Part shown: positions 5,949-32,609 of the stretch, piece by piece
Layout of the letters: the number at the start of each line of letters is the position of its first letter
How positions within the stretch are numbered: the stretch's first letter is position 1
Source of the DNA: Auriscalpium vulgare
Taxonomy: Eukaryota > Basidiomycota > Agaricomycetes > Russulales > Auriscalpiaceae
NCBI GenBank assembly: GCA_019915015.1
Contig: JAHBBC010000001.1
Coordinates: 1,178,001-1,242,000 of the forward strand
Reading direction: 5' to 3'
Length of the DNA stretch: 64,000 bases
Position numbers and translations under genes: made by a program
The notes under the pieces: model-generated
The model's database searches: none
What the model saw: the letters and a program-made list of their open reading frames with translations, nothing else
What the model was told of the DNA's origin: nothing

Positions 5949-5986
5949 CAGGCCCTGTACCGCTGCTGGGGTCAGCAGTCTCAGTC

Positions 5987-5996
5987 GGGGGGAGGA
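5987..5996 (+). other. Internal PPT-like purine tract after pol (element 1)
   Basis: GGGGGGAGGA inside TCAGTCGGGGGGAGGATG, 38 nt after the pol stop. The same core recurs between the B and A genes and directly before the 3' LTR, and at all three matching places in element 2. It may be a secondary plus-strand priming site or a scar of modular assembly. Confidence 0.5.
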
Positions 5997-8460: not shown

Positions 8461-8947
8461 GGGAAAGGAATCGGGGTGTCGAGGGAGGGAGCGAGTGAGG
8501 GGGAAGGAGGGAAGAAGGGCGACGGCGACTTCGCCACAGGCGCACGAACAATGGCGCGTGCGTGGGAGCGACCGGCCGCGTGGCCCGGCCAGAGCGCTGG
8601 TTTTGCCTCCGAGCGCCCACGACGCCGGGTCGATCCGCGATCTGATCAGCGATCGTTGATTTGATCCCGCGACAGGCCCCGGACCGGTGCGGGACGCCAC
8701 GCGCGGCTCCGACGCCGCGTGGCGGGCACGTGTTGCTGGCGCGAGCGAAATCGCACAAGTCGTTGGCGCCCGCCCCTCCCACGGGGCGCGACCACGGTAC
8801 ACTGGCGTCGCACAAGCGGGTAACGCGTCGCAAGTTCAATACTCGTATTGGGAGGCATTCAACGACGTACATGCGGGCACAAGGCACTACACTAACGCGG
8901 GCTCTTTCTTTCCCTTTATCTCCCGACGCTCCGACAGTGCGACGACG
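8461..8947. other. Spacer between genes C and B (element 1)
   Basis: This gap of about 490 bp should hold the 5' flank of gene C and the 3' end of gene B. I see no clear TATA box and no further coding potential. Confidence 0.4.
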
Positions 8948-10129: not shown

Positions 10130-10252
10130 GGTCGGAGGCTGGGTCGCACGCACCGACCGCACTCGTTATGTAGGCCGTCGGAAACCCGCCGCGACCCGAT
10201 ATGCCGGGGTTTGGCCGGAGAATTTGCGTCTGAGGACAGGCGCAGATTTCAG

Positions 10253-10264
10253 TTGGGGGGAGGA
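10253..10264 (+). other. Internal PPT-like purine tract between B and A (element 1)
   Basis: TTGGGGGGAGGA preceded by GATTTCAG. Element 2 has the same block (minus strand) at the matching place, with ATTTCAGTTGGGGGGAGGA conserved. It lies upstream of gene B on the minus strand and downstream of gene A. Confidence 0.55.
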
Positions 10265-10551: not shown

Positions 10552-11779
10552 CTACTCGCGACTGCTCGCGATGTCGCTATCACTATCGCTGCGGTAATCC
10601 ACTATCGCGCCGACATCGCCGACCACCACACGCTCCATCACAGCGACATTATCCCCGACACCCCCGGCGTCCACGGGATCGCCCTGCATCTGCTCGTCGG
10701 AATCGACACCGCCGGCATCGTCGTCAACCAAGCCGACACCCTCACCGGCGGGCAAGGCGGGGAGCCCCGACAATACACGATGGCGCACAAAGGTCACCAA
10801 GAGGTTGTTCGTGTAAAGGTCGGGCTCGGTCGGGGCGGCTGGGAAATGGCGCAGAACGTATGCCGCAGTCACTGCGTACTCCAGGAAGAGTCGGGTTGCG
10901 TGCTCGAGGGAGAGGCAGGGGTCGCGAACGATGGCTAACAGGTAGGGAGCGTCGGCCCAAAGGGCTTGCAGATTGGCGACGTTCTCCGTAGCCCCAGCGA
11001 GCTCCTCGACGGTCTCGCGGTACACGGCCTCGAAACGAGCTAAAAGACGCGCACCCAGTCCGCCGAGGTTGCGACCGTACTGCGTGGGGGGCGAAATGGG
11101 CCAAGCGGTCGACTCGCGGGCGACGTAGTCGGGAAGGAAAGCGGTCCCACCACGCGAGTGGCGAATGGAGAGCGCGGAACATTCCAAGGCCTCTCGGAGG
11201 ACGTACGCGACCCACGTCTGGTTGCCCAGGGGACGGTCATCGGGGATGGCGGCATGGAAAATGGCGAGCTCGCGCAAGTACGACGCGACCGAGCACCCGC
11301 GTTTGCGAAACACGACCCAAAAGTTCTCCTCAACCAGCGTCGCGGTCAGCCGAACCTTGGGGGCGTCAAGTAGGTCGACCCGATCAACAACGGAGGTCCA
11401 CGGGTGCAGCTCGGTCGTAGGGAGCGGGGCGGGACGAAGAAAGCGCCCCGCCCACGAGCGGAAGCGATCCTCGACCTCGGGTACGAGGAGGATGGCGTTC
11501 TCGAGTATCGGCATGAGGATGCGCTCGGCGAGGGGGATGATCAGCCTGGGGTCGGAATCGGTGATGGATTCCTACAGCCGATGGGAGCGGACGGTTAGCG
11601 CGACGACGGGGCGGAAAAGAGGGGAACCGTACGATGACAGCCAACACCTCCTGTGCCCAACGCTCGCGCGATTCGATCGCTTCGGCGGCTGCTGCGAGCG
11701 GGAAGTCCGCGCTGGGGGCCCGACCCAGGTGGTACAGCAAGAGAGTACCGCGACGGTACGTGTGGGGAGACCAGGTCAT
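10552..11779 (-). CDS. Gene A of element 1: spliced accessory protein, antisense to gag-pol
   Basis: Exon 1 is 11779-11633 (49 codons, starting MTWSP) and exon 2 is 11571-10552, giving about 388 aa against 387 for gene A of element 2. The intron 11632-11572 is 61 nt (GTACGG...CTGTAG, with a GCTAAC branch-point match), so splicing is required to keep the frame. Conserved landmarks shared with element 2 are RERWAQEV before the intron, PILENAILLVP after it, a VEENFW.VF / EEDLWTTY block, G.QT.VA.VLR, GLG.RLL and WADAPYLL. The C-terminus is acidic. No known domain was recognised. Its 5' end lies 137 bp from the PPT, so its promoter is probably in or next to the 3' LTR. Confidence 0.78.
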
Positions 11780-11916
11780 GATGATGTGTGGGGGGGGGTT
11801 GGTTGGTCGGGCGGGCGGTGCGACGCTACCTGACGACTCATCGAGACGGCGCGAGGGAGCCTTTATCAGGAGGGGCCATCCGGGGATTCGCCGACTGAGG
11901 GCAGTCGGTAGCTCAG

Positions 11917-11928
11917 TTGGGGGGAGGA
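11917..11928 (+). other. 3' polypurine tract of element 1
   Basis: TTGGGGGGAGGA directly precedes the 3' LTR, which starts TGATGGG at 11929. The flank GGTAGCTCAGTTGGGGGG is identical in element 2, where the PPT also abuts the LTR. This is the expected plus-strand primer. Confidence 0.85.
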
Positions 11929-12786
11929 TGATGGGACCCGCAGCGCTACAGGCACCGAAACGGACCAATCACACCGCTACACCAAGACACACACCCCCGA
12001 GACGCCCCACAGGCGTCGCGGCACCGGCACGACCACGGGACAGCACAAAGCGAGCGAGCGTCTGGGGAGGAGACGGAGAGCCGAGGTAGGGAGTCGGAAC
12101 GGTCGGGCGCGGAACTTGGTAGGACGCGTAGGAGCGCAGACGCGTGGGAAGAGCTGACGAAGCAGCGGTATATAGACGCGATTCGACTTGTTGTAGGGAC
12201 ACTTTTGGACCTGGGGCCTACACCCGAGACTACACCTTTCATTCCTGCTTCACAGAGAGCATCGCACGACGCGACACAGCCAGACCACTGGGCCGACACG
12301 ATGCCTTAAACCAGGAAGCCGTAGCGACATCCGGGTCGCGCCACCTTTGCGATACCACGGGCTACGCTGCCCCGACTCAACCACAGACTGGAGTGATACA
12401 GTGTGGTAGGTTTTATGACTGACGTTTATATTCCAGGATAGCGACTCGGACGGTACAAGCGCGGGGACACAGGTCGGACGGTCGGACGGCAAGGGCGACT
12501 CCGCAACTAGGACGGACCGGCGGCGACAGACGGGAGGGTCGCACCGAATAGTGTGGGAAGAGACGCAACGTGCGACGGTCGGACGGGAGCGGAGAGAGAG
12601 AGAGAGAGGGGGAGAGGGCCGCAGGACGAGGGCAGGACCCGCGGGGTCCTGGGTGGTTTGTTCGGGGCACGGTCGCGATCTTGGGTTTCTTCCTCCGACC
12701 CACTACCTCTTGGGCCAGCGGTTGGCTGCTCGCTCCCTCCATTTCTATCGACGTTCCCGGGGCCTCCCCCAGGGTTCACCTCATCA
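11929..12786 (+). repeat. 3' LTR of element 1 (about 858 bp)
   Basis: It begins TGATGGGACC, as the LTR of element 2 does when read in its own orientation, and ends CTCATCA (TGATG...CATCA inverted termini). The interior is diverged from the LTR of element 2 and contains a GA-rich simple run near 12594-12615. The base after it (12787) is the first of a segment shared with 41392 onward. The matching 5' LTR is outside the window. Confidence 0.85.
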
Positions 12787-13722: not shown

Positions 13723-14251
13723 GTATCCGTCCGTTGCGTGTGTTGACCCCGTACTCTGCGTGTGTCGAATCTGTGTTGGGAGTTCCACCGAAGTCTACTT
13801 GAAGTCCGCGTACGTTCGCATCTGTTATCCACTCCGCATACCCCCCATCCCTGCTCGACTTCACCGTCTAGTGTTTTCCCCCATCGGTTCATTCTCGTTC
13901 TTCGGTCGTACTCCGTTGAACGTCCCCGTCTAGAGTATCGTCACCCGTACTCTGTATTCTTGCATCTCCGGACAATATCAATCTACGTGCACATCCGTAC
14001 ACACCCTCCGCACGTCCCCGTGCATTTCGTCTTTTGGATCTCTTCACCAGATTCCAGAACTCGACTCTTCGATCCTTCCCAGGTACTTCTTACGACATAA
14101 GTGCGGACCACCGAAGAACCATCGCACAACGAACAACTAGGTAACTCCGGGAGTTTAGAGAACCCGAGGAGCCTAGGGCAGAAGTCTTCATCGTCACTCG
14201 TGCTGCGTTCCGCACCGCGATACTTCGAACCTCTTCCCGCCGCGACAACAC

Positions 14252-14269
14252 TGGAGCCCACCGCGAGGG
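14252..14269 (+). other. Primer-binding site of element 3
   Basis: TGGAGCCCACCGCGAGGG, four bases after the LTR. The same 18-mer is used by element 2. The complement ends GGTGGGCTCCA, resembling a tRNA 3' end; from memory a Lys(CUU)-type tRNA fits, but that is unverified. Confidence 0.8.
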
Positions 14270-18511: not shown

Positions 18512-19226
18512 TGATGAGTAAACCCCCACTGCAGTCGCTGGGGGGGCCAAGGGTCGGGGTGAGGAGTGCTCTACTGCCTGGGGCGAGAGGAGAGAGGGTA
18601 AGAAGGAGCGTGAGAGCGCGCGACCGCTGGCGAAAACCCCCAACCACAGCGCGCTCTCTATCCTGGGGCGCGCTGCCGCTGCCGTCCTTCTCCTACTAGC
18701 CAGATACCGTCAGTCCCGTCGCAAACGTAATACACATACCGTCAGTCCAGCACCGTGCTGTCGAGTCCCTCAGTCTCCCATTTCGCTCGCCGTGTTCGCC
18801 TAAGCCGTACTGACTTGGTGACTCTTCGCCGAGACTACCGCTTCCCCTGCCGCTGCTATCTTCGCCTTTCCCCTAGTGCATGGTTAGGTCCCGTCGCCTG
18901 GTTCGCCGAACGCTCGCTAGGGTCGTATCTCTTGTTTTGTGCTGTGAAGTCTCGGGTGTCGTCTCCCAAGGGTAGATTGCTTTGTCATCACTCGTACACG
19001 TACACTCTATGCTCTATCACCTCTCGATTCCCACGCTACCCTTCGTTCGGCGCCTACGACCTCTCCCGCCTCCGGTCACTCTACCCTTCGCGAGTGGCAA
19101 CCTTCCCTCAGTTCGCTGCGTTTCGCCGACCTTGGTTCTGTCCCGCCGCGCCCAGGGGAGAGTGTGGTGGTGTGGTTTGAGGTGTGCGGTCCGGTCTACG
19201 TGCCTGTAGCACGCGAGGTCCCATCA
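18512..19226 (-). repeat. 3' LTR of element 2 (715 bp)
   Basis: Identical by eye to 31891-32605. Read on the minus strand it starts TGATGGGACC and ends TTTACTCATCA. It holds two copies of ATACCGTCAGTCC and one TTCGCCGAA dyad (18902). No TATA box was recognised on the minus strand. Confidence 0.95.
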
Positions 19227-19239
19227 TTCCTCCCCCCAA
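19227..19239 (-). other. 3' polypurine tract of element 2
   Basis: On the minus strand TTGGGGGGAGGAA directly precedes the LTR. The preceding GGTAGCTCAG is identical to element 1. Confidence 0.88.
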
Positions 19240-19391
19240 CTGAGCTACCGACTGTCCTCAGTCGGGTCCTCCTCGGAGACCCTCGGCGATGCTCGGCGAA
19301 TCGCGCTCCTGAAAAGACCCCCTCCCTACCGCCGAAGGCCCTAGCTGCGCCATCCCCGACGCCGCTATCCCAAACACACCCAACCACCAAC

Positions 19392-20615
19392 ATGGCCTGG
19401 TCCCCTTCCATCCTTGCCTTCCAACTCCATACCTTACGCCAGCTCGCTGAAGTCCCGCGTCCCTTCGCGTTCGCCGAAGACTCCGCCGTGGCCCTGGCCG
19501 AGCTGGAGACTTGGGGGCGCCAGCTGGTGGCCCTCCTGGTACGTGAACCGCGTTGCTCGTCCGTTTTTACGCCCAAATCTGACCGTAATTGCCCACAGGA
19601 AAACTTGGACCGCGGCAGTTCGCCCAGCATCTTTGCCGCCGCCGAACGAGTTGCTATGCCTTTGTTTGAGCAGGCCATGTTGCTAGCGCCCACGACTACC
19701 GCCAGCTTCGCCGAATGGGCCCGGCCCCTCCTGCGGCTGTACTCCGCCTACCACGCCCCCATGCACCCCTGGGATGCCGTCCTGGGCCCCGACGAGGGGC
19801 TCCCCGTGCGCGAGCTCCTTTTTAAAGCCAGCATCGTTGAGGAGGATCTGTGGACCACATACCGCGCCGGGACCAGCGACGTCGAGTCTTATTTGGAGGA
19901 GCTACGTCAGTTCCACGCCACGTTCCCCGCCCATCGTCCCCGCGGAATGCAGACCTTCGTCGCCGACGTTCTCCGCCGTGTTTTGACGCAGGCTGCCATC
20001 GTCATCGACCAATCTGACGGGGGTAGCCGTGTTCTGCTAGCCACGGTCGATCAACACGCCTCCCTGACTACCCAGCTCAACGCGCGTGCTTCGCGTGGCC
20101 GTCACCTCGCCGGACTTGGTGGTCGTTTGTTGGGCGCCTTCGTGGCTGAGTCCACTAGCAGCTTGGATCGCTTCCATTCCGCCTTGCGCTCCTTGGTCGG
20201 TATCCGCGCCGCGTGGGCTGACGCCCCTTATCTCCTCGACCTCATTGCCGAGCCCGTCGTCATCCTGGAGCGTAGCTTTATAGCCTTCCTGGAACGCGGC
20301 CGCGTCTACCACCACTTCCTTCTTGGCCTGCCCGCGACGGCTGCTGTGGCCGATCCGTTCGCCGGCTCCGCGGTGGCTATGATGTTGCTCGGTGGCGATC
20401 TCTCCGATTCCTCCGACGGAGAGGACGGGGCGTCGTACAGCCCCCTCGGCGTCACCTACAGCCCTAGCAACGGTTCCGCGGCGTCCAACGCTGAAGTCGC
20501 CCTAACGATCGCCGAAGAGTTGGGGGTGGCACTAGATGATGAGGAGATACAGACGTCCTCGGTGGTGCTGACCGCATCCGCTGTGGCCGCTGCCCTTCGT
20601 GACGCGGCCGAGTAG
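19392..20615 (+). CDS. Gene A of element 2: spliced accessory protein, antisense to gag-pol
   Basis: Exons 19392-19538 (49 codons) and 19599-20615, 387 aa. The 60-nt intron 19539-19598 has donor GTACGT, a CTGAC branch point and CCCACAG; it lies at the same codon as in gene A of element 1 and in both B genes. Start ATG 19392 follows ACCAAC and opens with MAWSP, like MTWSP in element 1. Conserved features are ELETWGRQ before the intron, PLFEQAMLLAP...FAEWA after it, EEDLWTTY, QTFVADVLR, GLGGRLL and WADAPYLL. The C-terminal 70 residues are acidic and Ser-rich. No known domain, signal peptide or membrane segment; function unknown. The ATG is 165 bp from the LTR end, so antisense transcription probably starts in or beside the 3' LTR. 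Confidence 0.82.
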   Translation: MAWSPSILAFQLHTLRQLAEVPRPFAFAEDSAVALAELETWGRQLVALLVREPRCSSVFTPKSDRNCPQENLDRGSSPSIFAAAERVAMPLFEQAMLLAPTTTASFAEWARPLLRLYSAYHAPMHPWDAVLGPDEGLPVRELLFKASIVEEDLWTTYRAGTSDVESYLEELRQFHATFPAHRPRGMQTFVADVLRRVLTQAAIVIDQSDGGSRVLLATVDQHASLTTQLNARASRGRHLAGLGGRLLGAFVAESTSSLDRFHSALRSLVGIRAAWADAPYLLDLIAEPVVILERSFIAFLERGRVYHHFLLGLPATAAVADPFAGSAVAMMLLGGDLSDSSDGEDGASYSPLGVTYSPSNGSAASNAEVALTIAEELGVALDDEEIQTSSVVLTASAVAAALRDAAE

Positions 20616-21020
20616 TAGATACTTCTGTACCGTTCTGCTCCTTCAAATGGCAATTGTGCGAGTCCTTATGACGCTCCTCGTTGACCCGGGGAGGCGGGGG
20701 TTCCTCCTCCTTCACTACTGACTGGGCGAAGCTCGCGCGTGGTTCGGCGAACGTCCGCCCCACCCTGTCCTGTCGTTCTGATCCGGTCAACGCGGTCTTC
20801 GTGCTCTCGTCGCTCCTCCTCGCCTTTATCGCTGTTCCGGGTTCCTCATGGTGCTTCTCGCCGCGCCTGTGTCTTGTGTCTTTGATCCGCCCGCTAATCT
20901 CCCGATAGGTGCCCTTTTTGCTCCGCTGATTTGCCTTTCCCGCTTGTAGTCCGCGGATCCTATTCGGCGGCGGTTCGCTGGCGAACGCCCTGCGATCGCT
21001 CTGCGCTCCTCCACGCGCGT

Positions 21021-21032
21021 CCTCCCCCCAAC
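21021..21032 (-). other. Internal PPT-like purine tract between B and A (element 2)
   Basis: On the minus strand the block reads ATTTCAGTTGGGGGGAGGA, matching 10246-10264 of element 1. The conservation extends several bases upstream, beyond the purine core. Confidence 0.55.
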
Positions 21033-21101
21033 TGAAATTTCGCCTGTCCGCAGGCGCACGCGGCCACCGGCCGCCGGCTCAGGAGTCCCGGCTGGCTGTA
21101 G

Positions 21102-21109
21102 CATAAAAG
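21102..21109 (+). promoter_or_regulatory. Possible TATA box of gene B (element 2)
   Basis: CATAAAAG about 40 bp upstream of the B start codon. A weaker TACATAAC sits at a similar place upstream of gene B in element 1 (about 10164-10173, minus strand). It would support an internal antisense promoter. Confidence 0.35.
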
Positions 21110-21147
21110 CTGACTGGGTCATCTGTCGCCGACGCTCCCCACGTACC

Positions 21148-22311
21148 ATGCCGTCGCCTTTTGTCCTGTCTGTCCGCGCCCTCGACTTGCTCACGCTTCT
21201 CCTCGCCCCGCCGTCGCTGATGCTAGAGGCTACTCCCGTGGTCGCCCTTGTCGAGGAGAGGGAAGCCTGGGGTCGCCGCGTGGCTGGTGCCATTGTATGT
21301 GAACTGCGCGGCCGCTCTTTACTGCCCAATACTGATTCTCCACAGGAGGGTGTCCGTGTTTCTGAGCGCCCATTGTTCCTGCGTGTGGCGGCCATGGTTA
21401 CTGTCCCCGTGTTCGAGGCCCTCTTCGTTGTCGCCCCCCACGTTCGCGACACGTTCGCCGTATGGGGTGGGTCCCTCGTTATGGCCTCGGCGCCCCCGGC
21501 GAACAGCCTCGCGCAAGATCCGCTCGGGCAGCCGCCCCTCGCCGCCCTTTCCTTCCGCGGAGTTTTGAGCCACGGGCGTGACGTTGTCCGCCTCGGCGAA
21601 GCTGTCTTGTTCAAGATGCTCGAGGGCGGCCAGCTCTCGCACGCAGCGTACCAGGGCGAACTCGGGGCGTTGTACCGCACCCGCGTACCCCTTCGCCAGA
21701 ACCCTGGCTGTCTGGCAGTGCATGAGGGGATCGTCGACGCCATGTATGCGTGTTCCACCGCCCTTCGCGCCGAGCATGGCGGCTCCCAGATCATCCTGTC
21801 CGCGGCCTATCATGCCACCACCGCCGCCGCGGGCGGCACCGCCGTGGACCTCGCCGAAACCTTCCAACGCATCGCCGGCCCCATTTCAGCGTCCTTCCTG
21901 ACGTACGCCGAAGATTCCATTGTACACCTTCGCCTCGCTTTCGATTACGTCCAGCTCGTCCGCGGCTCCCGTACTTCCGACCTGGCATATGGCGTTGAGT
22001 TTGCCCGCGCGGCCGACCAGCTGGAAGCCACCGCGCGGGAACATATTCACGACCTTACGCTCTGGGCTGTCATGCTTGATCGTTTTCGCCTCGTCACGTC
22101 GTTGGCGCGTTCCCTTCGCGTGGCCGGGCTGCCGCCTTCGGTGACGGGCCACCCCGGCGAGGAGGACATCATTCTAGTCGGCGATACCGGTCGCGGGGGT
22201 CGCCCCGTGCACAACCCTATGGAGGAAGGCGCGTACGTCCCTCCTGCGCGCCGCGCGGGACGGTTCCGCCCTCGTTCGGCGAACGCCGGCGTGAACGCCT
22301 CCGCAACGTAA
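21148..22311 (+). CDS. Gene B of element 2: spliced accessory protein, antisense to gag-pol
   Basis: Exons 21148-21294 (49 codons) and 21346-22311, about 370 aa. The 51-nt intron 21295-21345 runs GTATGT...ACTGAT...CCACAG. It is collinear with gene B of element 1 (REAWGRRV | ... PVFEALFVVAP...FAVWGG; QLSHAAYQGELG against TSVPQYRRSLGE; C-terminal Arg/Gly-rich tail). It is a distant paralogue of gene A: exon 1 has the same length, and the intron lies exactly eight residues after a conserved Trp. Predicted helical, soluble, function unknown. Confidence 0.82.
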   Translation: MPSPFVLSVRALDLLTLLLAPPSLMLEATPVVALVEEREAWGRRVAGAIVCELRGRSLLPNTDSPQEGVRVSERPLFLRVAAMVTVPVFEALFVVAPHVRDTFAVWGGSLVMASAPPANSLAQDPLGQPPLAALSFRGVLSHGRDVVRLGEAVLFKMLEGGQLSHAAYQGELGALYRTRVPLRQNPGCLAVHEGIVDAMYACSTALRAEHGGSQIILSAAYHATTAAAGGTAVDLAETFQRIAGPISASFLTYAEDSIVHLRLAFDYVQLVRGSRTSDLAYGVEFARAADQLEATAREHIHDLTLWAVMLDRFRLVTSLARSLRVAGLPPSVTGHPGEEDIILVGDTGRGGRPVHNPMEEGAYVPPARRAGRFRPRSANAGVNASAT

Positions 22312-22741
22312 ATGCGTCTGCGTAGCTGGGCGAAGACAGTAGAGGTTCTTGGTCGCCCAGCTATCCTGTGCGTTAGTAGTCGGAATGCAATAAAAGGTTG
22401 CTTGCGCGTTGATGGTATAGTGATCCCAGTGCATTGCCCCTTGTCGGCTACCATCGACCTCTTCCGCGCGATCCGCCCCCCACTGAGTGATGGGCGCTTC
22501 CGACTTGTAGGTTTTCTGGTGGCCGCGAGGCAGTGCTCCGAAGTAGCTGCGCGCGTACGTCATAGTGACTACACGCCTGCTGCCGAGCTAGGGCGCCTAT
22601 ACACGGAAGCAAAACTCGCGCGCTACGCACGGCCCAGCTCATCTGTACGGCATCAGCGTCTCTTTTGTGCCACAAGTTCGCCGCGCTTCGCTTCTTGTTC
22701 TTGGCCTTCACTTCCCCTCCCTTTCCTCGCGCACGCTTTCC
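22312..22741 (+). other. Spacer between genes B and C (element 2)
   Basis: This 430-bp gap contains the 3' end of B and the 5' flank of C. Pyrimidine-rich sequence precedes the C start (22690-22735). No motif was firmly recognised. Confidence 0.4.
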
Positions 22742-24813
22742 ATGGCCGACCCGTCCGCCCTGGCTGATTTCGCCCGCGACATCGTCGTCGCCGACCTGGC
22801 CTCCGTGGAGGCCGACCTCCCGGCGTCCGGTACAGTCGCTGAGCGGCAGGCTTGGTGCGTTCGCGCAGCCGTCGTTTCCGTGCGTGCCCCACTCTCCCCT
22901 TTTTCGTGTCCGCCTTGCTAACCTTCCCTTCAGGAGCGCCTGTGGGCATTACTGGGTCGCGCCGTCGCGCTGCCTCCCGGTGTGGCGGACCGCCTCCGCC
23001 TCTTGGACAGCGCGGTCGGCCGCCTCCGCCCCGCCGATCCCGCGCCCGCTCCGACGTTTGCGCCTCTCGCGCCGTTCCCGGCCCCTTCCCCTCCTGCTGC
23101 CAGCCCGGCACGTCCTACCCCCGCGTCCCGTAAGAAGAAGGTGCGTTCTCGTCATCTCACCCTTCTCACGTCCGCTAATCGCTCCGCCCCCAGCCCGTCA
23201 AGAAGCCGGCTCGCGTCGAGGTCGTGATCCCGGCACGCCCAGCGGTCCCCCCGCCCGTCGTCGCTGCGGCTCCTGCGGTCCCGCCTCCCGAGCCCGAGCC
23301 CGCACCGCTCTCTCCACGCGACGAGCGAGCCCAACGGAACGCAGCCCGCAGGGCTCGCACCGCCGTTGTGCCCGCTCCGGTCATTCCTCCCCCCGCCGTT
23401 ACCGCGCCCGTACCCGCGACTCCCCCTACACGCAAGCGAACGCGGAGTCAAGCCCGCAAGAAGACCCGCGCCCCGATCGACGCCGACGCCCTGTCCAGCG
23501 AGGTCGACGACGAGGGCGATCCCCTCTACCAAACTTCCCGCGTCCGTCCCACGTTCGTCGAGCGGTACGCCGGTGAACGTGTCCCGGTGCGTTCTTGCCT
23601 CCCGTCTCGTCCTCCTAGAGTCTGACCGCCCCTCCATCCTCTGTAGACCAGTCAGCGGTGCACGTACTGCCGTTATCACTTCGACGAGCCCGCGGACTGC
23701 TATTTCAAGCCCCACAGTCTCGCCAAGTGCGTCAAGTGCCGGGTGCACAAGAAGCACTGTGGTGGCGCTGTTCTGGAGGGCGGGTACGTACAGCGGCCCA
23801 AGCGCCGTACCCGCGCCGACTCGCCTTCGCCTGGACCTCGCCCACGCAAACGCGCGCGCGCCAACCCTCCGTCCTCGTTGCAAGTGGCGCACCCGCCGGG
23901 TTCGCCGTCGCTCCCCAACCACCGCGGGCTCTCCCCTGGCTCTCGCGTCGCGATGATGCCCTTCCCAGAGGCGCTAGCTTTCGCCGACCTTCCCAGTAGG
24001 TCACTTCTCCTCCTTTCTCCCTACCTGCCTTGACCCATTCCCGCAGGCGCATATGGCCCCGCCGCGCCGCTCCTCCGCGATATGGCGGCCGAAATCGAGA
24101 CGGCTCAGGCTGAGTGGACGTCCCTTCTGGCGCCCATCTCGGACTTCGGCGAGACCCTTGGCGACCTCAATGCGCTCTATATCGAGCTGTCCGCTAACGC
24201 GCACGCCCTCCGTGTCCTGGCGCGCCGCCACGACCGCCTCCACCTCCGCGCGCGCCAGATCGCCGATATCCTCGATCGGTCCCCCACTCCCGCGTCTGAG
24301 CCGTCGCCCGTCATCCCCACTGCTCTCCGGGTAGCGCCTGGCGGCCGCATCCGCTCGACTCCTCCCCCGGTCGCTGGTCCCTCCGGCCCCCAGTCGCGGG
24401 CGCGTCTTGAAGACGAGCTGGAAGACCTCGCTCGCTCCCCTTCGCCTCCGCTCCTTGCCAGCCCGCGTGCGCTCATTCGCACGGCTTCGCCTCCCGTCGC
24501 TGGCCCTTCCCGCCTGCGTTCGCCCACTCCTGTCGCCGAATCCTACGACACCTGGGGAGGGTTCCAGGATTCCTGCGACGAGATCGCAATGGGGCCGTCC
24601 TTCTCCGACCCTCTCGCCCCGTCGCCCCTCCCCGAGTCCGTTGCCAGTCCCGCGCCCGACGCCGCTGTGGCCGATGATCACCCCGGCCTTTTCCTGCCCG
24701 GCGCGACCGCTACCCCCGTCTCGGATGTCGGCGACATCGGCATCCTTCTGCCTGTTGCCGAGGATTCGGAGGGGGTGGAAGGGGAGGTCGCTGGCGTCAT
24801 TGCCTTGGAGTAG
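22742..24813 (+). CDS. Gene C of element 2: five-exon zinc-cluster-like protein, antisense to gag-pol
   Basis: Exons 22742-22879, 22934-23140, 23194-23586, 23647-23995, 24047-24813, about 617 aa. Introns: GTGCGT...TTCAG, GTGCGT...CCCAG, GTGCGT...TGTAG, GTAGGT...CGCAG; phases 0,0,0,1. Introns 1, 3 and 4 contain stops and intron 2 shifts the frame, so all four must be removed. Residues 251-284 carry C-X2-C-X9-C-X9-C-X2-C-X6-C (CTYC...CYFKPH...CVKC...C), followed by GGAVL; gene C of element 1 matches (CEFKPH, SGAVL). Long Pro/Ala linkers and Lys/Arg patches (KRTRSQARKK, RPRKRARA) look like nuclear localisation and DNA-contact regions; the C-terminus is acidic. A DNA-binding regulator is the best guess. 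Whether it is true Zn2Cys6 is uncertain because the middle spacing is wider. Confidence 0.83.
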
Positions 24814-25004
24814 TGGTGTTGCTTCGTTTCCATTGTTTCCGGTTCCTCGTTCTTCTGTCTCTTTTCCTGTACCGTTCCCCTCTTGTTTCCTGCTGCCTTC
24901 TCCGTGTCCTTGTAGCCTTCTCTTTTTCCCCAAAATGTAAATAGCCTGTGTCTTCCGCTGTTCAATTGAGATCCCTCCTGTTCTTGACGCGTGAGCTCTG
25001 CCAA

Positions 25005-25015
25005 CCTCCCCCCAA
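25005..25015 (-). other. Internal PPT-like purine tract after pol (element 2)
   Basis: On the minus strand CAAGTTGGGGGGAGG, 27 bp after the pol stop and matching 5987-5996 of element 1 in position. Confidence 0.5.
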
Positions 25016-25041
25016 CTTGAAGACAGAGCTGTCCTCAGCGC

Positions 25042-28000
25042 TTATTGATCGGCATGGTCGTCCACATCGCTCCCTACACTCGCGCGGTCGCTCCCGTCGG
25101 CGCCGTCTTCGCTGAGCGAACGTGACTCGCCTAGCTCGCCCACTACACTGGGAGCCAGGTCGCCAGACGTGAGTGCCACGACCCGGTCGATCGGCACATC
25201 TATGAAGTCGGGCAGCCTGGGCAGGTCCATGTGTGTACGGGCGAAGTAAGGGATGACGCGAAATTCGGCGACCGGGCGGTCAAAGATCGCGCCGTTCAAG
25301 TCGCAGAGGATGTACGGGCCGCCTTTTCGCCGAGCAACGACAATGAAGGGCCCATCGTACCGCGGGAGCATCTTCCGGTCCAGCGATTTCTCATACTGTG
25401 TGTAGCGGAGTAGGACAAGGTCGCCCCGTTGAAAGTTGTAGTCCTTGATGGACGTCTCGTGATCGCGTTCAAACTTCACGGCCGCGATTCGGCGAGCGTC
25501 ATAAACTTTCGAGTGCAACGTCCGCAGTTGTGTACGGCGTTTCTGCAAGGCGACCGCCCGTCTCGCGATGAGATCCGTCGTAGACAAGATTGAGTCTGGC
25601 GGCGGTAGGAGATACGTGGCTTCGACGATATCGAGTGGCAGCAACGGTTGCGTGCCCGTGGCCGCAAAGTACGGCGAACAGCCCATGCGCCGGCGCGTCG
25701 TGACCCTATCAGCCCAAAACACGGAGTGCGCCACATTCGCCCACTTAGTCGCGTCGCCGTCTGCTGCCTTATAGAGCGCCTGGCGAACGTCAAAGTGGGA
25801 GCGTTCGATGAGCCCATTGGAGCGCGAATTATAGCCGGAGATCCTGATGTGTCGCACGCCGTATTGGTCCTCCAAGGCCTTCAGCGCGGCCACGTACGGG
25901 GTTCCGTTGTCTGTGACGATTTCGCGGAGAGCACCCCACCGGCACAGGACATCTTCGAAGATCCATCTGGCGATGGACGTCGCGTTCTCCTGCCGGAGCA
26001 TTCTCCATTCCGGAAAGTGAGACACGGAGCAGCGGCCTTGGACCAGATACTTGAAGCCTTTTGACGCCGGCATGTGCATGGTGTCGGCGTACATTTTGGC
26101 GAAGAGTCCCGCGGGCGTGGCGACTTTCGGCGGAATGAGGACGTGCTTGACTTGGCGCGTCTGGCAGATGCCACACGTCCTCACAAACCAGGCGACGTCC
26201 CGGTCCAGGAACGGCCACCAGACGCGCTCCAGCAATAGCATGCGCGTCGCGTAGACGCCGCGATGCCCGACGTCATTGTGACAGGCCTCCAACGCTGCCA
26301 TCCTCTTGTCCTGGGGCAACACCAACTGATGACGTCCCTGGGGTTCCTTCTTGAAAAGGCTCGTGCCGTCCAAGAAAAATTCCGTGCAGTACCGCAAAAA
26401 GGTGGCGTATTCCTGATCGCTGAGGTTTGCCGGCCGCTGCAGCGTACGATGCCACTCGCGGACTTTATCAATGCGCGAGTCGGCATCCTTGCTGCGAGCG
26501 TCTCGCTCGACCTTATCATAAGAAACCGATACTACTTGGTTCAGCGAAAAGAAAGTGGCCACGGAGGTTCGAGTAACCCCACTCTGCTCCGTCGGCGAGC
26601 TTCGGCGAACTCCGGGCACGTAGACGTTGATGAGATGCATAAACCCGTACAGCGCGTCCACCCAGTCTTCAAAATGGTCGTCGTTGGGCTCGTCGGCGTC
26701 GCCTGGTTGGCGACGGCGACGTGATAACCCGTCTGGGCCGTGGAACAGGCCCGGGACGTGTACCAAGATAAAGTGAAACATTAAAATCGCTATGATCCAC
26801 CTATTGATGCTCGCCGACGGCTCAATGTCAGGGTTGTCCAGCATGCCTTTTATGTATCTTGCATCGACTTCGACCACGAGGTTCCGTACCCCAATCAGGT
26901 AAAGCTTTAGGGCGCGTAGCGCCCTGAAGAGGCCGTATAGCTCCAATTTCGGCTGTGAGAACCGTGCTTCCCGGTCGTTAAGGGCTATGGAACCAAATCG
27001 TGCGTAATGTCGCTTCTTGCGGCTCTTTGGCTCGTCGTGATCCGCCTGGCAGAGCAAGAACCCCACCGCGATCGGCGAAGTATCCACGGCAAGAATGACC
27101 GCGTCGCCCGAATGGTAGTCGATAGGCTGTAGCGCCGGGGACTCTAGCACCGCAGCCTTTAGGTCTTCCATGGCTGCCAACTGCTCCGCCCCAAATTCGA
27201 AAGGGACATCCTTTCGCGTGAGGTGCGTCAACGCGTGTGCGCGATGGGCAAAATGTTGGATGAATACTCGTAGGACCCCAACCGTCCCCAGGAATGCGCG
27301 CACGTCTGAAAGGTCTCGACACGGCCCCCAGTTCACGATTTTGGACACACGGGCCTCGTCGGGTACGCGGCCTTCCGCCGTGCAGCGGTGGCCGACCACC
27401 ATGATCTCCGGCGCACAGAGCACCGTTTTCCAGCCCGAGAACGTTCCACCCGAGTACTTCATCCGTTGTACCACCCGGTTGAGGTTCTGAAAGTGTTCCC
27501 ACACGAATCGGCGAATACCCTCATTGTCGGCGATAGTCTCGTAGTTTCCTTCCTCGTCTTGGTACCTACTCGCCGGACCTTTGACCGGTACGTCGTCGAT
27601 GAATGGTACCGTGATGTGTGGTATTTCCGCCTGCAGGATGTGGGTGACGTCGTCGTGAAATATCGGCACGGAATTCGTCCATCCCATAGGCAAGGTGACC
27701 AGTCGTAGGGCGCCGTACGGGGTCTGGAACGTAGTCAGGTCCCGTGACGCGACGTCCAGGGTCCGTTCGTCGTAGCCCACATACAGGTCCAACATCCCTC
27801 CGCACGCTCTCCCAGCAAACTGTTCGGCGAGCTGGTCCGTGAACGGCGGAACTCCCGAGTGCGCAATTGTCACCGCGTTGAGGGGCTCGAGGCTGTGTAC
27901 TAAACGCAAACTCGTGCCGTCTTTCTTGACCACACAGAACCATTTGGAACGGTACGAGGAGTTGGATGGTTCGTAAACGTTCGCCGCTAGCTTTCGGCGA

Positions 28001-28725
28001 ATCTGTTCGCAGACCTGATCGTAGATGCCAGGCGGGATTGGGATGTTGCGCTGCACCCACGGCGTATGGGGAACTACGGGAATGGTAACCGGCGGAAAGA
28101 AGTCCTCACGGAAGTGCCCTCGCTCTGTATCGTCCCATGCAAACGCCTCGTTGTGCACTCCCATGAAGTGGTGCATCAGCTTGCGCTCCTCCGGCCACAG
28201 GAAGTCCGGTCCGTGGACCACGTCGAACTGGGCTCTCCTCTCAGCCGTATACCGGCCTTCAGCTTTAAAGTCCGGGGGCTGGGTCGGCAGTACCGGTATG
28301 TCCGCCAGCGGGTCGCCAGCGATATCGCGCACTATCCGGAACTGCTGGGGCAGGTCGGCAAGAACGGGTTTCACTTTGAGATGTACTGGCTTGTACTTCT
28401 TTTTAGTTGCCGCAAAGACGGCCTTCGCTTTCTCGTTCTGTACCAAGGGTTCGGCGCCGAGGGTCTTGTCCGAACTCGCGTGCGAAGGCAGCTCAGCCGC
28501 TGCGAAATAGAATAAAGGATCCGCGGGTATATGGACGACATCGACCGGCGACGTCTTAAACAATCGTGGGGTATCCCCCGGCAAATCACAGAAAGATAAA
28601 TAGGTTGCACGTAACTCGTTTGCTCCCGTCGAGGAGTCGAAGGGGACCAGGTTTTCAATCTTAAGCTCTTCAGTGTCGCCGGGCCGGAACGAGACCACTA
28701 GCGCCACCTCCGCCTGATCCACCAA
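25042..28725 (-). CDS. pol: Pol polyprotein (RT-RNaseH-integrase) of element 2, intact
   Basis: 1227 codons from the TTG at 28725, but the frame is open upstream to the frameshift site, so pol is probably a -1 Gag-Pol fusion. Landmarks (residues of this frame): RT with D313 (MLDLYVGYD) and FIDDV at 375-379; RNase H with AVDTS at 546-550 and later D in VEVDARYIKG; integrase zinc finger H816, H821, C851, C854; catalytic core D881 (YADTMH), D939 (VTDNG), E974 (GLIERSHF); a C-terminal RGDLVLLR and GPFIVVARRKGGPY module. No chromodomain is seen. About 80% identical to pol of element 1 by eye and complete. Confidence 0.95.
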   Translation of the reverse strand: MVDQAEVALVVSFRPGDTEELKIENLVPFDSSTGANELRATYLSFCDLPGDTPRLFKTSPVDVVHIPADPLFYFAAAELPSHASSDKTLGAEPLVQNEKAKAVFAATKKKYKPVHLKVKPVLADLPQQFRIVRDIAGDPLADIPVLPTQPPDFKAEGRYTAERRAQFDVVHGPDFLWPEERKLMHHFMGVHNEAFAWDDTERGHFREDFFPPVTIPVVPHTPWVQRNIPIPPGIYDQVCEQIRRKLAANVYEPSNSSYRSKWFCVVKKDGTSLRLVHSLEPLNAVTIAHSGVPPFTDQLAEQFAGRACGGMLDLYVGYDERTLDVASRDLTTFQTPYGALRLVTLPMGWTNSVPIFHDDVTHILQAEIPHITVPFIDDVPVKGPASRYQDEEGNYETIADNEGIRRFVWEHFQNLNRVVQRMKYSGGTFSGWKTVLCAPEIMVVGHRCTAEGRVPDEARVSKIVNWGPCRDLSDVRAFLGTVGVLRVFIQHFAHRAHALTHLTRKDVPFEFGAEQLAAMEDLKAAVLESPALQPIDYHSGDAVILAVDTSPIAVGFLLCQADHDEPKSRKKRHYARFGSIALNDREARFSQPKLELYGLFRALRALKLYLIGVRNLVVEVDARYIKGMLDNPDIEPSASINRWIIAILMFHFILVHVPGLFHGPDGLSRRRRQPGDADEPNDDHFEDWVDALYGFMHLINVYVPGVRRSSPTEQSGVTRTSVATFFSLNQVVSVSYDKVERDARSKDADSRIDKVREWHRTLQRPANLSDQEYATFLRYCTEFFLDGTSLFKKEPQGRHQLVLPQDKRMAALEACHNDVGHRGVYATRMLLLERVWWPFLDRDVAWFVRTCGICQTRQVKHVLIPPKVATPAGLFAKMYADTMHMPASKGFKYLVQGRCSVSHFPEWRMLRQENATSIARWIFEDVLCRWGALREIVTDNGTPYVAALKALEDQYGVRHIRISGYNSRSNGLIERSHFDVRQALYKAADGDATKWANVAHSVFWADRVTTRRRMGCSPYFAATGTQPLLPLDIVEATYLLPPPDSILSTTDLIARRAVALQKRRTQLRTLHSKVYDARRIAAVKFERDHETSIKDYNFQRGDLVLLRYTQYEKSLDRKMLPRYDGPFIVVARRKGGPYILCDLNGAIFDRPVAEFRVIPYFARTHMDLPRLPDFIDVPIDRVVALTSGDLAPSVVGELGESRSLSEDGADGSDRASVGSDVDDHADQ

Positions 28726-28733
28726 CGACCCCT

Positions 28734-31700
28734 CTAGTTCCGAAAACCCGCAGCCTTTGTTTCTTGTTCCACAATCCGCCGCGATCCCCGTTCGATAGTG
28801 GGGACGGTCGCTGTCTCCTGAGTATTGGGGTCTGTAATCGTGATGGTCTGACGCTCATCCGGAAAGTTGCGGACCACGCTGCCCGTCAATACGTCAAACG
28901 GCCTCCCCAAGAGGATGTCATATGCCGGTGAGCGAATGACGTGTATCTGAACGTAGAGCGTGATTTCGCCGAGCTTCAGCGCTACGTTGCGCGCCAAACC
29001 CAGCGACTTGTCGACGGACCCGTTTGCCGACAGCATATCTAGCGTGATGGTGGGGTCGTAAGCGAGCCCTAAAAAGTGGCATGTGTCTTCGGACATGGAG
29101 ATGACCTGCGATCCTGGATCCAGGATCGCCTCTATGTGCGCTTGGTTGTCTACCAAAGGTAGTACTGCCCGTAGCGCCGACGATTCTTTTGCCACGATCA
29201 ATGGTTCCGACGGCCGCTCGGTCGCGTTGAGGAACTGCGATAAAACCGGGTCCGGCAAGATGAGGGCGCCGGCGGGCGGCGCCGCCGTCTGGAAGCCCAT
29301 CGCCTGCATGAACGATGCCGGCATATGCGAAGATATTCCCCGGACACGGTCCCTCTCGGATTCGCGCTCACTGCTGCCGTCGTCTAAACCGCACAGGTCG
29401 CCGAAGGCTTCGGCGAATTCATCCTGTCCTGCCTGTAGCTCCGTTTGCATCACCGCCACCGGCTCTTGTGCCGCTCGGGTCGGTGCGGTAGGGATACGCC
29501 GAGGGGTGACAGCGTGTCTTATCTGCGCCCGTACTTCTGGGGCCAACGACAGTAACTCCCGTTGCGTCAGCGTAACTGATGCTCCCATTGCCCGCTCGTA
29601 CACCGTGGATGCTATGCCCTCCTCGTGTACCGGCGTGTCCTTGACGTAGGCCGCGGTTGCCTTCTTATTCCTTTCTGCGCGCTGTTCCTCCTCCGTGGCC
29701 ACGTACGTGGCATCCGGTACTAGCGCGAACGGGTGTATAGGCTCCGTGTCTAACTCCGGTTCTTCTTCGTGCCCCGCGACCGCCTCGCTGGATGGCTTGG
29801 CGTTCTCCGGTTCGGCGAATGCGACTTTCTTTGGCTTCGCTGTATACTTGGATGGCGAAATGACCACTTCTGGGACCATGCGCCTCGTCTTAACCCGCTC
29901 TCCGGGTAGGGGACCTATGGGTTTGGCTAGCTCCCCGTTCGCCAAGGCTCGCTCCCTTCTAGCTTTCTCCTCTGCCCTCTTGTCTCGCAGATTCATCAAG
30001 ACTTGCACCTCCTGATGTAGTTGTGCGACGCGTTCCTCATCCGTGAGCTGGGGTATCATCTGGATCATCCCTGCCACCGGTTGGTCGCGTGCAGGCCTCA
30101 GCGGGTAGTCGGTAACCGCGATCGGCCCCGACGTGGCTAACATCATGTTCTCGGTCACCGCGTTCCCGAGTCTCGCTGCGACTTCGGGCCTCAACGCCGC
30201 CGGGTTCGCTCGATAGTAATCATCGACAATCTGCTGTAGAGTTCCTTTGCCCCAGGGTATCTCCAGACCGCTGGCGAGCGTCACTTGGCCACGGTTGTTT
30301 CGGCGAACCTTCCCGTCGGCGATGCTCTCCTGGAGCACCATGCACTCGCGCATGAAGTGGTCCGGCCCCCCACAGAACGTGCACCGCGCACCGCCTTGTC
30401 CTGGCCCTGGCCGCGGCCGATCGTACCCCATGTTGGCCGCCTGCATCGGGCCCGCGGGTCCGCGCGTGAAGTTCGGCGCACCGTTGCCGTTGCCAGCTAG
30501 TGCCTCAGCTCTCCCGGCCTGGTACGCTCTCGCTATCTGTTCGGTCGCCTTCTCCAATAGCGCCCCAAACTGCTCGACCTTTACTACCGGTTCGGCGGCC
30601 TTCGCTGGCGGCAGCTGGCTCTCCACCGCCGCGGTTACGGACGGCATATCCGTGTGTGAGCGCGGCGTCGTCGTGGTCCCGTGCAGCAGGTACTCGGCGG
30701 CCTCAAAGACCTTCGCCATTGGATAAGGGTCATCGCGATCATGGTCCGGCTCCTTGTACTGCAACCGCTGTTCCACCCTGTCCTGCAGCGACCTGGGAAG
30801 CCCTCGGAGGAATGCGAAGTCTTGATCCCTCTCCGATACGCGGCCCCTCTTCTTCAAGAATTCGGAGATTGCGTAGAACTCCCGGTAGTAGTGGCTCAGG
30901 TCACCAAGAGAAGTAAGCCCCCCGTTTGCGTACTGGGCCACCAGCCTATCGAGGTCCCCTAGGACGTACTTCCGTTCACCGTCCGCGCCCGGGTAGAGGG
31001 CTATGATCGCCTTCTCGAAATCGGCGAACTTCTTGCCCTTCTCAAACTCCGGACGTATCACCCACTGATCCGCTGTGAGGACGTCGAGGTAACGGACCGC
31101 ATGCGCCTTCATCTCTTCATCGTTCGTAATCCCAGCTTGCGTCAACAGGTGCTTGAGTTCGGCGAAGTAACGGGGTAGCTCGCGGGGACGGCTCCCATCG
31201 AACGTGGGGGCGCGCCTATCACCGCGCGTAGGCATCGGGGTTGTCATCCTGGTGGGTAACGGCTGGTTTACGGGGGAACTGGGTGCGTCTGAAAGTGGGG
31301 AAGAGGCAGCCGAGCCGCTTCGCTGCCGCTCGCCTGATAAACCTCCCTGCGACCCGCGGTTCGGCGAAACTGGTCTATTTCGCCGTGACCCTGGATTTGA
31401 TGGTTGCCGTTCCCCGCGCCCATCAATGATGTCGGCGACTTCGGGCTCCGAATCGTCCGCCTCCGCGACTCGTCGTGAGCGCGGTGTCTCGACTGGGCCA
31501 ATCCTGAGCCTGGCCGGGCTCTCGCCCATGCGCAACAGTTCCCTATGCAGCATTAGCGACTCTACCCACCCGTCTTGCTCCGCTGGGCGACCATCTGGCC
31601 CGTCGTGTCTTGGCAAGGGAGGGCCCTGACGCGACACTTCGACCTCGTCGACCCCTCCACTGCTTCCCCTGCCTGCGTTGGTCGGGTCGAGTGCAGCGTC

Positions 31701-31847
31701 GTAACCAGCAACATTCCCGTCTTGTTCCTCGTCTTCGAAGTGGCCTGGCATTTCGGCGAATTGAGCCACGGCATATGCGTCTGTGCATGAGGCTCGCAAC
31801 GGCTGTCGCCTCGTGGGCTCCAACACTACTCTGGCCTTCGGACCCAT
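28734..31847 (-). CDS. gag: Gag-protease polyprotein of element 2, intact
   Basis: About 1037 aa from ATG 31847, the first ATG after the PBS; codons upstream of it are leader. The order is an N-terminal acidic/Pro/Arg region, a Retrotrans_gag-like domain (FDGSRPRELPRYFAELKHLL to LQDRVEQRLQ), a CCHC knuckle at residues 489-502 (CTFCGGPDHFMREC), a charged linker, and an aspartic protease with ILDPGSQ (D910) and YDILLGRPFD. The D-P-G active-site triplet is shared with element 1, while element 3 has D-T-G. Stop at 28734-28736. The frameshift heptamer lies just before the stop, and six TTCGGCGAA dyads fall inside this gene in three different frames. Confidence 0.95.
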   Translation of the reverse strand: MGPKARVVLEPTRRQPLRASCTDAYAVAQFAEMPGHFEDEEQDGNVAGYDAALDPTNAGRGSSGGVDEVEVSRQGPPLPRHDGPDGRPAEQDGWVESLMLHRELLRMGESPARLRIGPVETPRSRRVAEADDSEPEVADIIDGRGERQPSNPGSRRNRPVSPNRGSQGGLSGERQRSGSAASSPLSDAPSSPVNQPLPTRMTTPMPTRGDRRAPTFDGSRPRELPRYFAELKHLLTQAGITNDEEMKAHAVRYLDVLTADQWVIRPEFEKGKKFADFEKAIIALYPGADGERKYVLGDLDRLVAQYANGGLTSLGDLSHYYREFYAISEFLKKRGRVSERDQDFAFLRGLPRSLQDRVEQRLQYKEPDHDRDDPYPMAKVFEAAEYLLHGTTTTPRSHTDMPSVTAAVESQLPPAKAAEPVVKVEQFGALLEKATEQIARAYQAGRAEALAGNGNGAPNFTRGPAGPMQAANMGYDRPRPGPGQGGARCTFCGGPDHFMRECMVLQESIADGKVRRNNRGQVTLASGLEIPWGKGTLQQIVDDYYRANPAALRPEVAARLGNAVTENMMLATSGPIAVTDYPLRPARDQPVAGMIQMIPQLTDEERVAQLHQEVQVLMNLRDKRAEEKARRERALANGELAKPIGPLPGERVKTRRMVPEVVISPSKYTAKPKKVAFAEPENAKPSSEAVAGHEEEPELDTEPIHPFALVPDATYVATEEEQRAERNKKATAAYVKDTPVHEEGIASTVYERAMGASVTLTQRELLSLAPEVRAQIRHAVTPRRIPTAPTRAAQEPVAVMQTELQAGQDEFAEAFGDLCGLDDGSSERESERDRVRGISSHMPASFMQAMGFQTAAPPAGALILPDPVLSQFLNATERPSEPLIVAKESSALRAVLPLVDNQAHIEAILDPGSQVISMSEDTCHFLGLAYDPTITLDMLSANGSVDKSLGLARNVALKLGEITLYVQIHVIRSPAYDILLGRPFDVLTGSVVRNFPDERQTITITDPNTQETATVPTIERGSRRIVEQETKAAGFRN
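28743..28749 (-). promoter_or_regulatory. Probable -1 frameshift heptamer G GGT TTT (gag/pol, element 2)
   Basis: Canonical X XXY YYZ in the gag frame, two codons before the gag stop. From it the -1 frame is open through TTG GTG GAT into pol. The position matches G GAT TTT in element 1. Confidence 0.68.
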
Positions 31848-31868
31848 TGTGAATTTGAGCAGAGAGAT

Positions 31869-31886
31869 CCCTCGCGGTGGGCTCCA
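31869..31886 (-). other. Primer-binding site of element 2
   Basis: On the minus strand TGGAGCCCACCGCGAGGG, four bases (TTTG) after the 5' LTR. Identical 18-mer to element 3 (14252-14269). Confidence 0.85.
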
Positions 31887-31890
31887 CAAA

Positions 31891-32605
31891 TGATGAGTAA
31901 ACCCCCACTGCAGTCGCTGGGGGGGCCAAGGGTCGGGGTGAGGAGTGCTCTACTGCCTGGGGCGAGAGGAGAGAGGGTAAGAAGGAGCGTGAGAGCGCGC
32001 GACCGCTGGCGAAAACCCCCAACCACAGCGCGCTCTCTATCCTGGGGCGCGCTGCCGCTGCCGTCCTTCTCCTACTAGCCAGATACCGTCAGTCCCGTCG
32101 CAAACGTAATACACATACCGTCAGTCCAGCACCGTGCTGTCGAGTCCCTCAGTCTCCCATTTCGCTCGCCGTGTTCGCCTAAGCCGTACTGACTTGGTGA
32201 CTCTTCGCCGAGACTACCGCTTCCCCTGCCGCTGCTATCTTCGCCTTTCCCCTAGTGCATGGTTAGGTCCCGTCGCCTGGTTCGCCGAACGCTCGCTAGG
32301 GTCGTATCTCTTGTTTTGTGCTGTGAAGTCTCGGGTGTCGTCTCCCAAGGGTAGATTGCTTTGTCATCACTCGTACACGTACACTCTATGCTCTATCACC
32401 TCTCGATTCCCACGCTACCCTTCGTTCGGCGCCTACGACCTCTCCCGCCTCCGGTCACTCTACCCTTCGCGAGTGGCAACCTTCCCTCAGTTCGCTGCGT
32501 TTCGCCGACCTTGGTTCTGTCCCGCCGCGCCCAGGGGAGAGTGTGGTGGTGTGGTTTGAGGTGTGCGGTCCGGTCTACGTGCCTGTAGCACGCGAGGTCC
32601 CATCA
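31891..32605 (-). repeat. 5' LTR of element 2 (715 bp)
   Basis: Same sequence as 18512-19226 with the same termini. It is followed on the plus strand by the right GCGC duplication. Confidence 0.95.
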
Positions 32606-32609
32606 GCGC
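32606..32609 (+). repeat. Target-site duplication GCGC, right copy (element 2)
   Basis: Partner of 18508-18511. Confidence 0.9.

Follow-up and report, generated by a model that had tools for sequence, protein, structure and literature searches.

Extra open reading frames (ORFs) that lie antisense between pol and the 3' long terminal repeat (LTR) are established for retrotransposons of plants, and are also named for the fungal element Boty, whose antisense brtn is described as a single gene (PMC7264820 and PMC8365987, the latter citing Zhao et al. 2011). In the accessible part of the Retand study, antisense coding regions are reported in all cases studied and a TRP28 domain in 97% of clusters (PMC11963269), and a promoter has been reported upstream of gene23 of Grande (PMC7264820, PMC11963269). 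The role of these genes for the LTR retrotransposons that carry them is described as an open question (PMC7264820). Here we analyze a 64-kb window (positions 1178001-1242000 of contig C1) of the Auriscalpium vulgare genome (51.6 Mb, 96 contigs) containing a Ty3/gypsy-type element, element 2 (18512-32605 of the window), that carries three spliced genes, A, B and C, antisense between pol and its 3' LTR. An initial annotation of this DNA likened the arrangement to antisense ORFs of plant gypsy elements; the likeness stands, with the correction that a fungal gypsy case, Boty brtn, was already known (PMC7264820, PMC8365987, as far as their accessible text goes). In a literature search outside of which most subscription journals lay, the texts available named no fungal LTR element with an antisense cassette of several spliced genes. 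Antisense extra ORFs themselves are thus known, and a spliced, multi-gene, swapping antisense cassette is a new form.

The initial annotation placed the three antisense genes in element 2 and the same three, in the same order, on the same strand and with the same introns, in a second element of the window, element 1. Both placements were confirmed (Table 1). The introns are GT-AG and 51-62 nt long, their removal opens A, B and C in both elements and reproduces the protein lengths reported earlier (388/387, 374/370 and 650/617 amino acids in elements 1/2), and position and phase agree between the elements at 6/6 introns. The single intron of A and of B follows codon 49 in phase 0 in both elements (codon 50 in the A of a third family, see below), while those of C lie at amino acids 46/47, 115/131 and 246/269 in phase 0 and at 362/369 in phase 1. 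Public Auriscalpium vulgare gene models, which are annotations, splice at the same places in an A (P0001), a B (P0003) and the first intron of C (P0004). In P0004 the end of B and the start of C are fused into one model, and annotated proteins of the region may therefore be chimeric.

A-like sequence was found at 102 places in the genome, which sort by identity into 14 of type 2, 43 of type 1 and 45 of a third family. A check suggested earlier was whether the genes always lie antisense between an integrase and an LTR. In the source genome, this holds to the extent that an antisense integrase of the same clade stands downstream of A at 70 of the 102 places (9 of type 2, 30 of type 1 and 31 of the third family), at a distance of 4.7-5.5 kb in 63 of the 70. 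At 31 places A has no integrase among the 104 that were scored of 431 candidates, and one place has only a same-strand integrase, 10.7 kb off, which by position is another copy's. The order A-B-C-integrase recurs in 9/9 near-identical type 2 copies (a count that leaves out a diverged full-length A on C19, at 86% identity, and four fragments on C10), and the 43 type 1 places comprise 28 with all four members, 5 in which only the integrase is absent and 10 that are more incomplete; no member lies on the wrong strand at type 1 and type 2 places. The exon of C that encodes a cysteine cluster was found at 47 places (E up to 0.001).

When the search was made with the third-family sequence, an antisense A-like match lay within 12 kb of 39 of the 48 third-family integrases, and of 67 third-family A matches, 52 are at least 850 bp long, 34 of these with an antisense integrase. 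In the one third-family copy that was read, the LTR adjoins the same polypurine tract and A starts 123 bases away from it, and the distance from A to the integrase in this family (4.7 kb in 26 copies) leaves space for more genes. One B lies close to a third-family fragment, yet belongs to a type 1 copy. By these counts the cassette is present in most detected copies of two families, and A also in a third. Using the first A list, 35 of 105 integrase matches had no antisense A-like match within 12 kb, namely 7 of a fourth type and 28 others. This fourth type has no A-like match nearby at its seven places (Table 1) and is 60% identical to element 2 in its integrase; it belongs either to a relative without the cassette or to one whose cassette is too diverged to see.

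Ratios of nonsynonymous to synonymous change (dN/dS) were calculated from Nei-Gojobori counts. The comparison originally suggested, between elements 1 and 2, is uninformative, with synonymous sites near saturation; among closer copies the ratios are low. Element 2 A compared with three diverged copies gave dN/dS of 0.061 (327 codons, dS 0.91), 0.084 (117 codons, dS 1.01) and 0.147 (130 codons, dS 0.67), and element 1 B compared with three diverged copies gave 0.065-0.073 (322-324 codons, dS 0.87). Values were 0.22-0.25 for element 1 A against two closer copies, at dS 0.05-0.07, and 0.33 for part of C (146 codons, dS 0.80). Judged by these ratios, A and B are under purifying selection, and because the cassette in addition recurs genome-wide, the arrangement is more than chance. 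The original proposal of a selected function for the element, rather than captured debris, is thus supported both by the antisense integrase at 70/102 places and by the low dN/dS. Between elements 1 and 2, the cassette genes share 30-35% amino acid identity and pol 79.9%, with dN of 0.16 for pol, 0.30 for gag, 0.84 for A, 0.78 for B and 0.77 for C. Over long spans the cassette diverges about five times as much as pol, reflecting either a higher rate of change or an earlier split brought about by exchange.

Copies of the element are mosaic. Fifteen type 1 loci could be followed across B and the start of C, and ten of them fall from 99% to 66-67% identity with element 1 at a break just before C (Table 1); four, the window copy included, stay at 98-100%, and in one, other sequence cuts in close to the end of B. 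Among 27 copies with a B at 98-100% identity to that of element 1, C falls into classes of 97-100% (8 copies), 63-66% (3), 60-61% (11) and 47-52% (4, from alignments crossing stops), and one copy (on C12) has no C within 4.5 kb and a 99% identical C 11.9 kb further, probably past an insert. These classes were measured by coordinates over a 354-amino-acid query, with short B fragments and all type 2 copies excluded; the cysteine-cluster exon alone still gives four classes, in a different order (99-100, 79, 66-68 and 81-85%, respectively). By inspection, the 60-61% class mostly goes with integrases that are 80% rather than 81% identical to element 2, a slight difference which hints that the C exchange extends into pol. 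A second break separates A at 97-98% identity from B at dS 0.87. In 4/4 loci tested it falls at 10225-10237 (interval 10203-10250, log-likelihood gain 10-12), and the interval overlaps a hairpin at 10226-10243 that belongs to the motif described below. There is a further drop inside A, near 10800, from 98-100% to 91-94%. Recombination is the simple reading of these breaks, because a spacer at 90% identity beside a B start at 77% fits constraint poorly. At one locus (L053, compared with window positions 8686-8587) a 93% island in the B-C spacer lies between stretches of 77% and 69%, as if separately exchanged.

The polypurine tract adjoining the 3' LTR is TTGGGGGGAGGA in elements 1 and 2 and TTGGGGGGAGAAA in the third family. 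Its complement, as the motif CCTCCCCCC[A/G]ACT, occurs six times in the 64 kb compared with 0.01 expected, three times per element at homologous places: the LTR/A junction (motif i), between A and B (motif ii) and between C and the pol stop (motif iii). The polypurine part is kept nearly letter for letter at all three sites between elements 1 and 2, and a hairpin around CTG-N4-CAG comes after every copy. Eight hairpin forms, drawn from elements 1 and 2, from the third family and from one diverged copy, pair in 91% of cells, compared with 29-50% in slid controls. None of 500 shuffles reached the covariation score or the count of cells with changes on both sides; 4 of 7 pairs are changed on both sides, which 12/500 shuffles reach, and the count of further pair types was reached by 27/500. 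These figures come from 8 of 18 distinct motif forms, with close variants and decayed copies (L019, L020/L021) omitted, and the test favours the hairpin because the structure was chosen after the sequences were seen. From motifs i and ii it is 123-160 nt downstream to the start codons of A and B, and several of these intervals hold TATA-like sequence (by eye).

A and B are homologous to one another (E 1.6e-14 by profile, about 1e-6 by single sequence) and, on this similarity, paralogous; their shared intron position comes most simply from the common ancestor gene that such homology implies. The C protein has basic stretches, a cysteine cluster of the form CX2CX9-10CX9CX2CX6C (CX9 in element 2) and an acidic tail. 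In the part of element 1 C that encodes this tail there are two 89-bp direct repeats, 94% identical (window 6325-6569). Protein searches, with up to 7,996 candidates scored in each, returned four matches whose genomic loci were not seen, all from Auriscalpium vulgare (Russulales), one of them 95% identical to a quarter of B.

Taking these findings together, we give a probability of roughly 60% to the reading that A, B and C are element-encoded accessory genes, probably nuclear regulators, whose expression is driven by antisense promoters and which move between copies as modules. In such a scheme, a Ty3/gypsy clade in Auriscalpium vulgare would have acquired an accessory gene set antisense between pol and the 3' LTR, and A, B and C would be transcribed from antisense promoters of their own, candidates being the TATA-like sequences past motifs i and ii in several copies and a CT-rich tract before C. 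Introns would be retained because the element's genomic RNA is read from the other strand and so lacks the splice signals. C would go to the nucleus and bind nucleic acid of the element or of its target, and A and B, predicted to be all-helical, may work together with C. The repeated polypurine tracts could provide extra plus-strand starts on the 14-kb genome, and tracts and hairpins together could form joints for the template switching that exchanges gene modules. Only tentatively would we extend this scheme to an evolution like that of temperate phages, in which polypurine-hairpin joints might delimit modules swapped between lineages and C might be a specificity factor, with divergent alleles of it being placed on otherwise near-identical elements, perhaps escaping cross-regulation by related copies in the same nucleus.

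Several observations weigh against a cassette of nuclear regulators exchanged at polypurine-hairpin joints. Pfam assigned none of the three element 2 proteins to a family at E up to 1, a PDB sequence search left A without a match below E 0.5 and C without any, and a fold search gave no match for A at E up to 0.001; the nuclear role is therefore drawn entirely from composition and the cysteine cluster. The all-helical prediction for A and B comes from models of low confidence (mean predicted local distance difference test scores of 61.6 and 60.4). Zn2Cys6 domains (PF00172) have the spacing CX2CX6CX5-12CX2CX6-8C. We rejected C as a transcription factor of this class, as it has no PF00172 match and its cysteine spacing differs. 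Because the break before C has no motif, motifs would not be required for every exchange, and the hairpin core is intact in 16 of 18 forms, one form (L025, L048) having an altered core and a decayed copy (L020, L021) none. A role for the motifs as promoters only was likewise rejected, as motif iii precedes no antisense gene. Finally, the diverged type 2 A on C19 (86%, full-length) is accompanied by a B fragment with a stop and by no integrase match, and none of the B and C places found lies inside a third-family cassette, where only A was read.

Four other explanations were considered. The most durable holds that the three polypurine-hairpin copies are relics of cassette assembly, by tandem duplication or insertion at an LTR edge, and have no present role. 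Motifs that bracket the cassette and lie upstream of both paralogues, A and B, agree with such an origin; however, the polypurine part is nearly unchanged at three sites though the cassette genes share just 30-35% of their residues, and the hairpins keep pairing via compensatory change, which makes the relic explanation rather unlikely. Somewhat less likely still is a cassette that serves particle structure, packaging or entry instead of nuclear regulation, with A and B capsid-like or substituting for env. Such a role would suit two proteins that are predicted all-helical and whose divergence between families (dN 0.84 and 0.78) exceeds that of gag and pol (0.30 and 0.16), but no fold match is significant and C resembles a nuclear basic protein.

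We think it very improbable that the antisense frames matter only through antisense RNA by which the element is tuned or silenced, with protein secondary, even though antisense transcripts with possible regulatory roles have been reported for LTR elements (PMC7264820, in its accessible part). Synonymous sites in A and B change 7-16 times faster than nonsynonymous sites at dS 0.67-1.01, and because of this excess and of the conserved intron phase a translated product is indicated; dN/dS well below 1 counts against a form acting solely as RNA, and both roles may coexist. Least probable of all are captured host genes riding along without service to the element, for despite spliceosomal introns like those of host genes and host-gene capture being described for retrotransposons in the text available (PMC7264820), no A-like place is shown to be a host locus, 70/102 have an antisense integrase (31 have none in the integrase list scored), and the same genes, order and introns persist at 30-35% amino acid identity with dN/dS of about 0.06 among closer copies.

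Element 2 is a Ty3/gypsy (Metaviridae) element by its paired LTRs with TG...CA ends, short target duplication, domain order and polypurine tract. Its LTRs are identical and the insertion is therefore probably recent; the 4-bp GCGC flank duplication lies in GC-rich surroundings and is weak taken alone. The order is that of Ty3/gypsy, with the protease in the gag frame, ahead of RNase H and then integrase in pol. The gag frame also has a zf-CCHC match under the Pfam cut-off (E 0.029). In pol, PF17917, PF17919 and PF17921 are over the cut-off and PF00665 (E 3.2e-4) is under it, with RNase H at residues 555-690, integrase zinc at 847-901 and integrase core at 921-1009 (the core under cut-off). The Pfam search gave no match to PF00078 (reverse transcriptase, RT) in element 2 pol and a match under the cut-off (E 0.013) in element 1 pol. 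Element 1 lies on the plus strand with its 5' end beyond the window start, and its 3' LTR matched 18 loci, 12 of them (the window copy included) full-length at 97.1-100%.

Element 2 is itself nested in, and interrupts, a larger Ty3/gypsy-type element (window 12787-42853). The first terminal repeat of this outer element starts right at the end of the element 1 3' LTR, with no TG seen at its start, and 4 nt past it (14252-14268) stands a 17-base candidate primer binding site, TGGAGCCCACCGCGAGG, identical to that of element 2. A 1,291-amino-acid frame (32543-36418) starts in the element 2 LTR and precedes the pol frame of the outer element; it has long acidic and proline-rich stretches and no family over its cut-off.

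Table 1. Positions of the features discussed, in window coordinates except for the fourth-type integrases (contig:position).
Feature	Position	Strand	Remarks
Element 2 3' LTR	18512..19226	-	715 bp; 100% identical to 31891-32605; ends TGATG...CATCA
Element 2 gene A	19392..20615	+	387 aa (amino acids); intron 19539-19598
Element 2 gene B	21148..22311	+	370 aa; intron 21295-21345; paralogue of A
Element 2 gene C	22742..24813	+	617 aa; introns 22880-22933, 23141-23193, 23587-23646, 23996-24046
Element 2 pol	25042..28854	-	stop-to-stop frame; RNase H, integrase; RT by position
Element 2 gag + aspartyl protease	28734..31949	-	stop-to-stop frame, reaches slightly into LTR; PF13650 E 8.6e-7
Candidate primer binding site TGGAGCCCACCGCGAGG	31870..31886	-	4 nt past element 2 5' LTR
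Element 2 5' LTR	31891..32605	-	715 bp; GCGC at both outer flanks
Element 2 motif i	19229..19265	+	hairpin CCGACTG-TCCT-CAGTCGG; 3' LTR/A junction
Element 2 motif ii	21021..21057	+	polypurine-tract complement + hairpin, between A and B
Element 2 motif iii	25005..25042	+	polypurine-tract complement + hairpin, between C and pol stop
Element 1 gag + protease	35..2281	+	PF13650 E 6.1e-7; 5' part of element outside window
Element 1 pol	2625..5948	+	stop-to-stop frame; PF17921 E 2.9e-16, PF17917, PF17919
Element 1 gene C	6269..8460	-	650 aa; four introns
Element 1 gene B	8948..10129	-	374 aa; intron 9982-9926
Element 1 gene A	10552..11779	-	388 aa; intron 11632-11572
Element 1 motif iii	5962..5995	-	
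Element 1 motif ii	10226..10263	-	hairpin 10226-10243
Element 1 motif i	11891..11927	-	
Element 1 3' LTR	11929..12786	+	858 bp
Break before C	8506..8511	.	46-51 nt ahead of C start codon; log-likelihood gain 172-180
Outer element terminal repeats	12787-14247 and 41392-42853		~1,461 bp, 99.9% identical
Fourth-type integrases	C4:892570, C13:1042398, C25:425044, C26:283144, C2:880382, C2:2616408, C2:2633591		

As in elements 1 and 2, the plant elements Retand, Grande and RIRE2 carry their antisense ORFs (aORFs) between pol and the 3' LTR, and the aORF region of 2.9-6.6 kb in Retand compares with 5.8 kb and 6.0 kb between pol and the 3' LTR in elements 2 and 1, respectively (PMC7264820, PMC11963269, in the parts accessible). 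A, B and C as genes of the Retand type with TRP28 (PF04195) were rejected, as Pfam (E up to 1) gave element 2 no family for them. The Retand paper never uses the word intron (PMC11963269), whereas the cassette genes of elements 1 and 2 are spliced, and the accessible text on plant aORF elements describes neither a repeated polypurine-hairpin nor gene swapping (PMC7264820, PMC11963269). Boty, from the ascomycete Botrytis, is likewise a gypsy element of a fungus, and its antisense gene also lies between pol and the 3' LTR; it has one such gene as described, compared with three here, and the two are likened by position and strand only. HBZ of human T-cell leukemia virus type 1 (HTLV-1) is another antisense gene of a retroelement, reported in the text available to have a nuclear product (PMC11963269); it differs in its unrelated host and in being a single gene, and the likeness is one of arrangement only. 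In the available account of the lentiviral central polypurine tract, that tract is an internal copy of the plus-strand primer (PMC4393142), and elements 1 and 2 likewise have internal tract copies; these differ in being two per element, with hairpins and outside pol, and are read here from sequence alone.

A fungal system with three spliced antisense genes, two of them duplicates, with measured selection and natural alleles on near-identical backgrounds, amounts to a ready-made genetic experiment. For a retroelement, the triple polypurine-hairpin would offer a concrete link, open to testing, from plus-strand priming to modular recombination, and with one gene of three swapped between copies, these elements seem closer to modular viruses than to simple retrotransposons.

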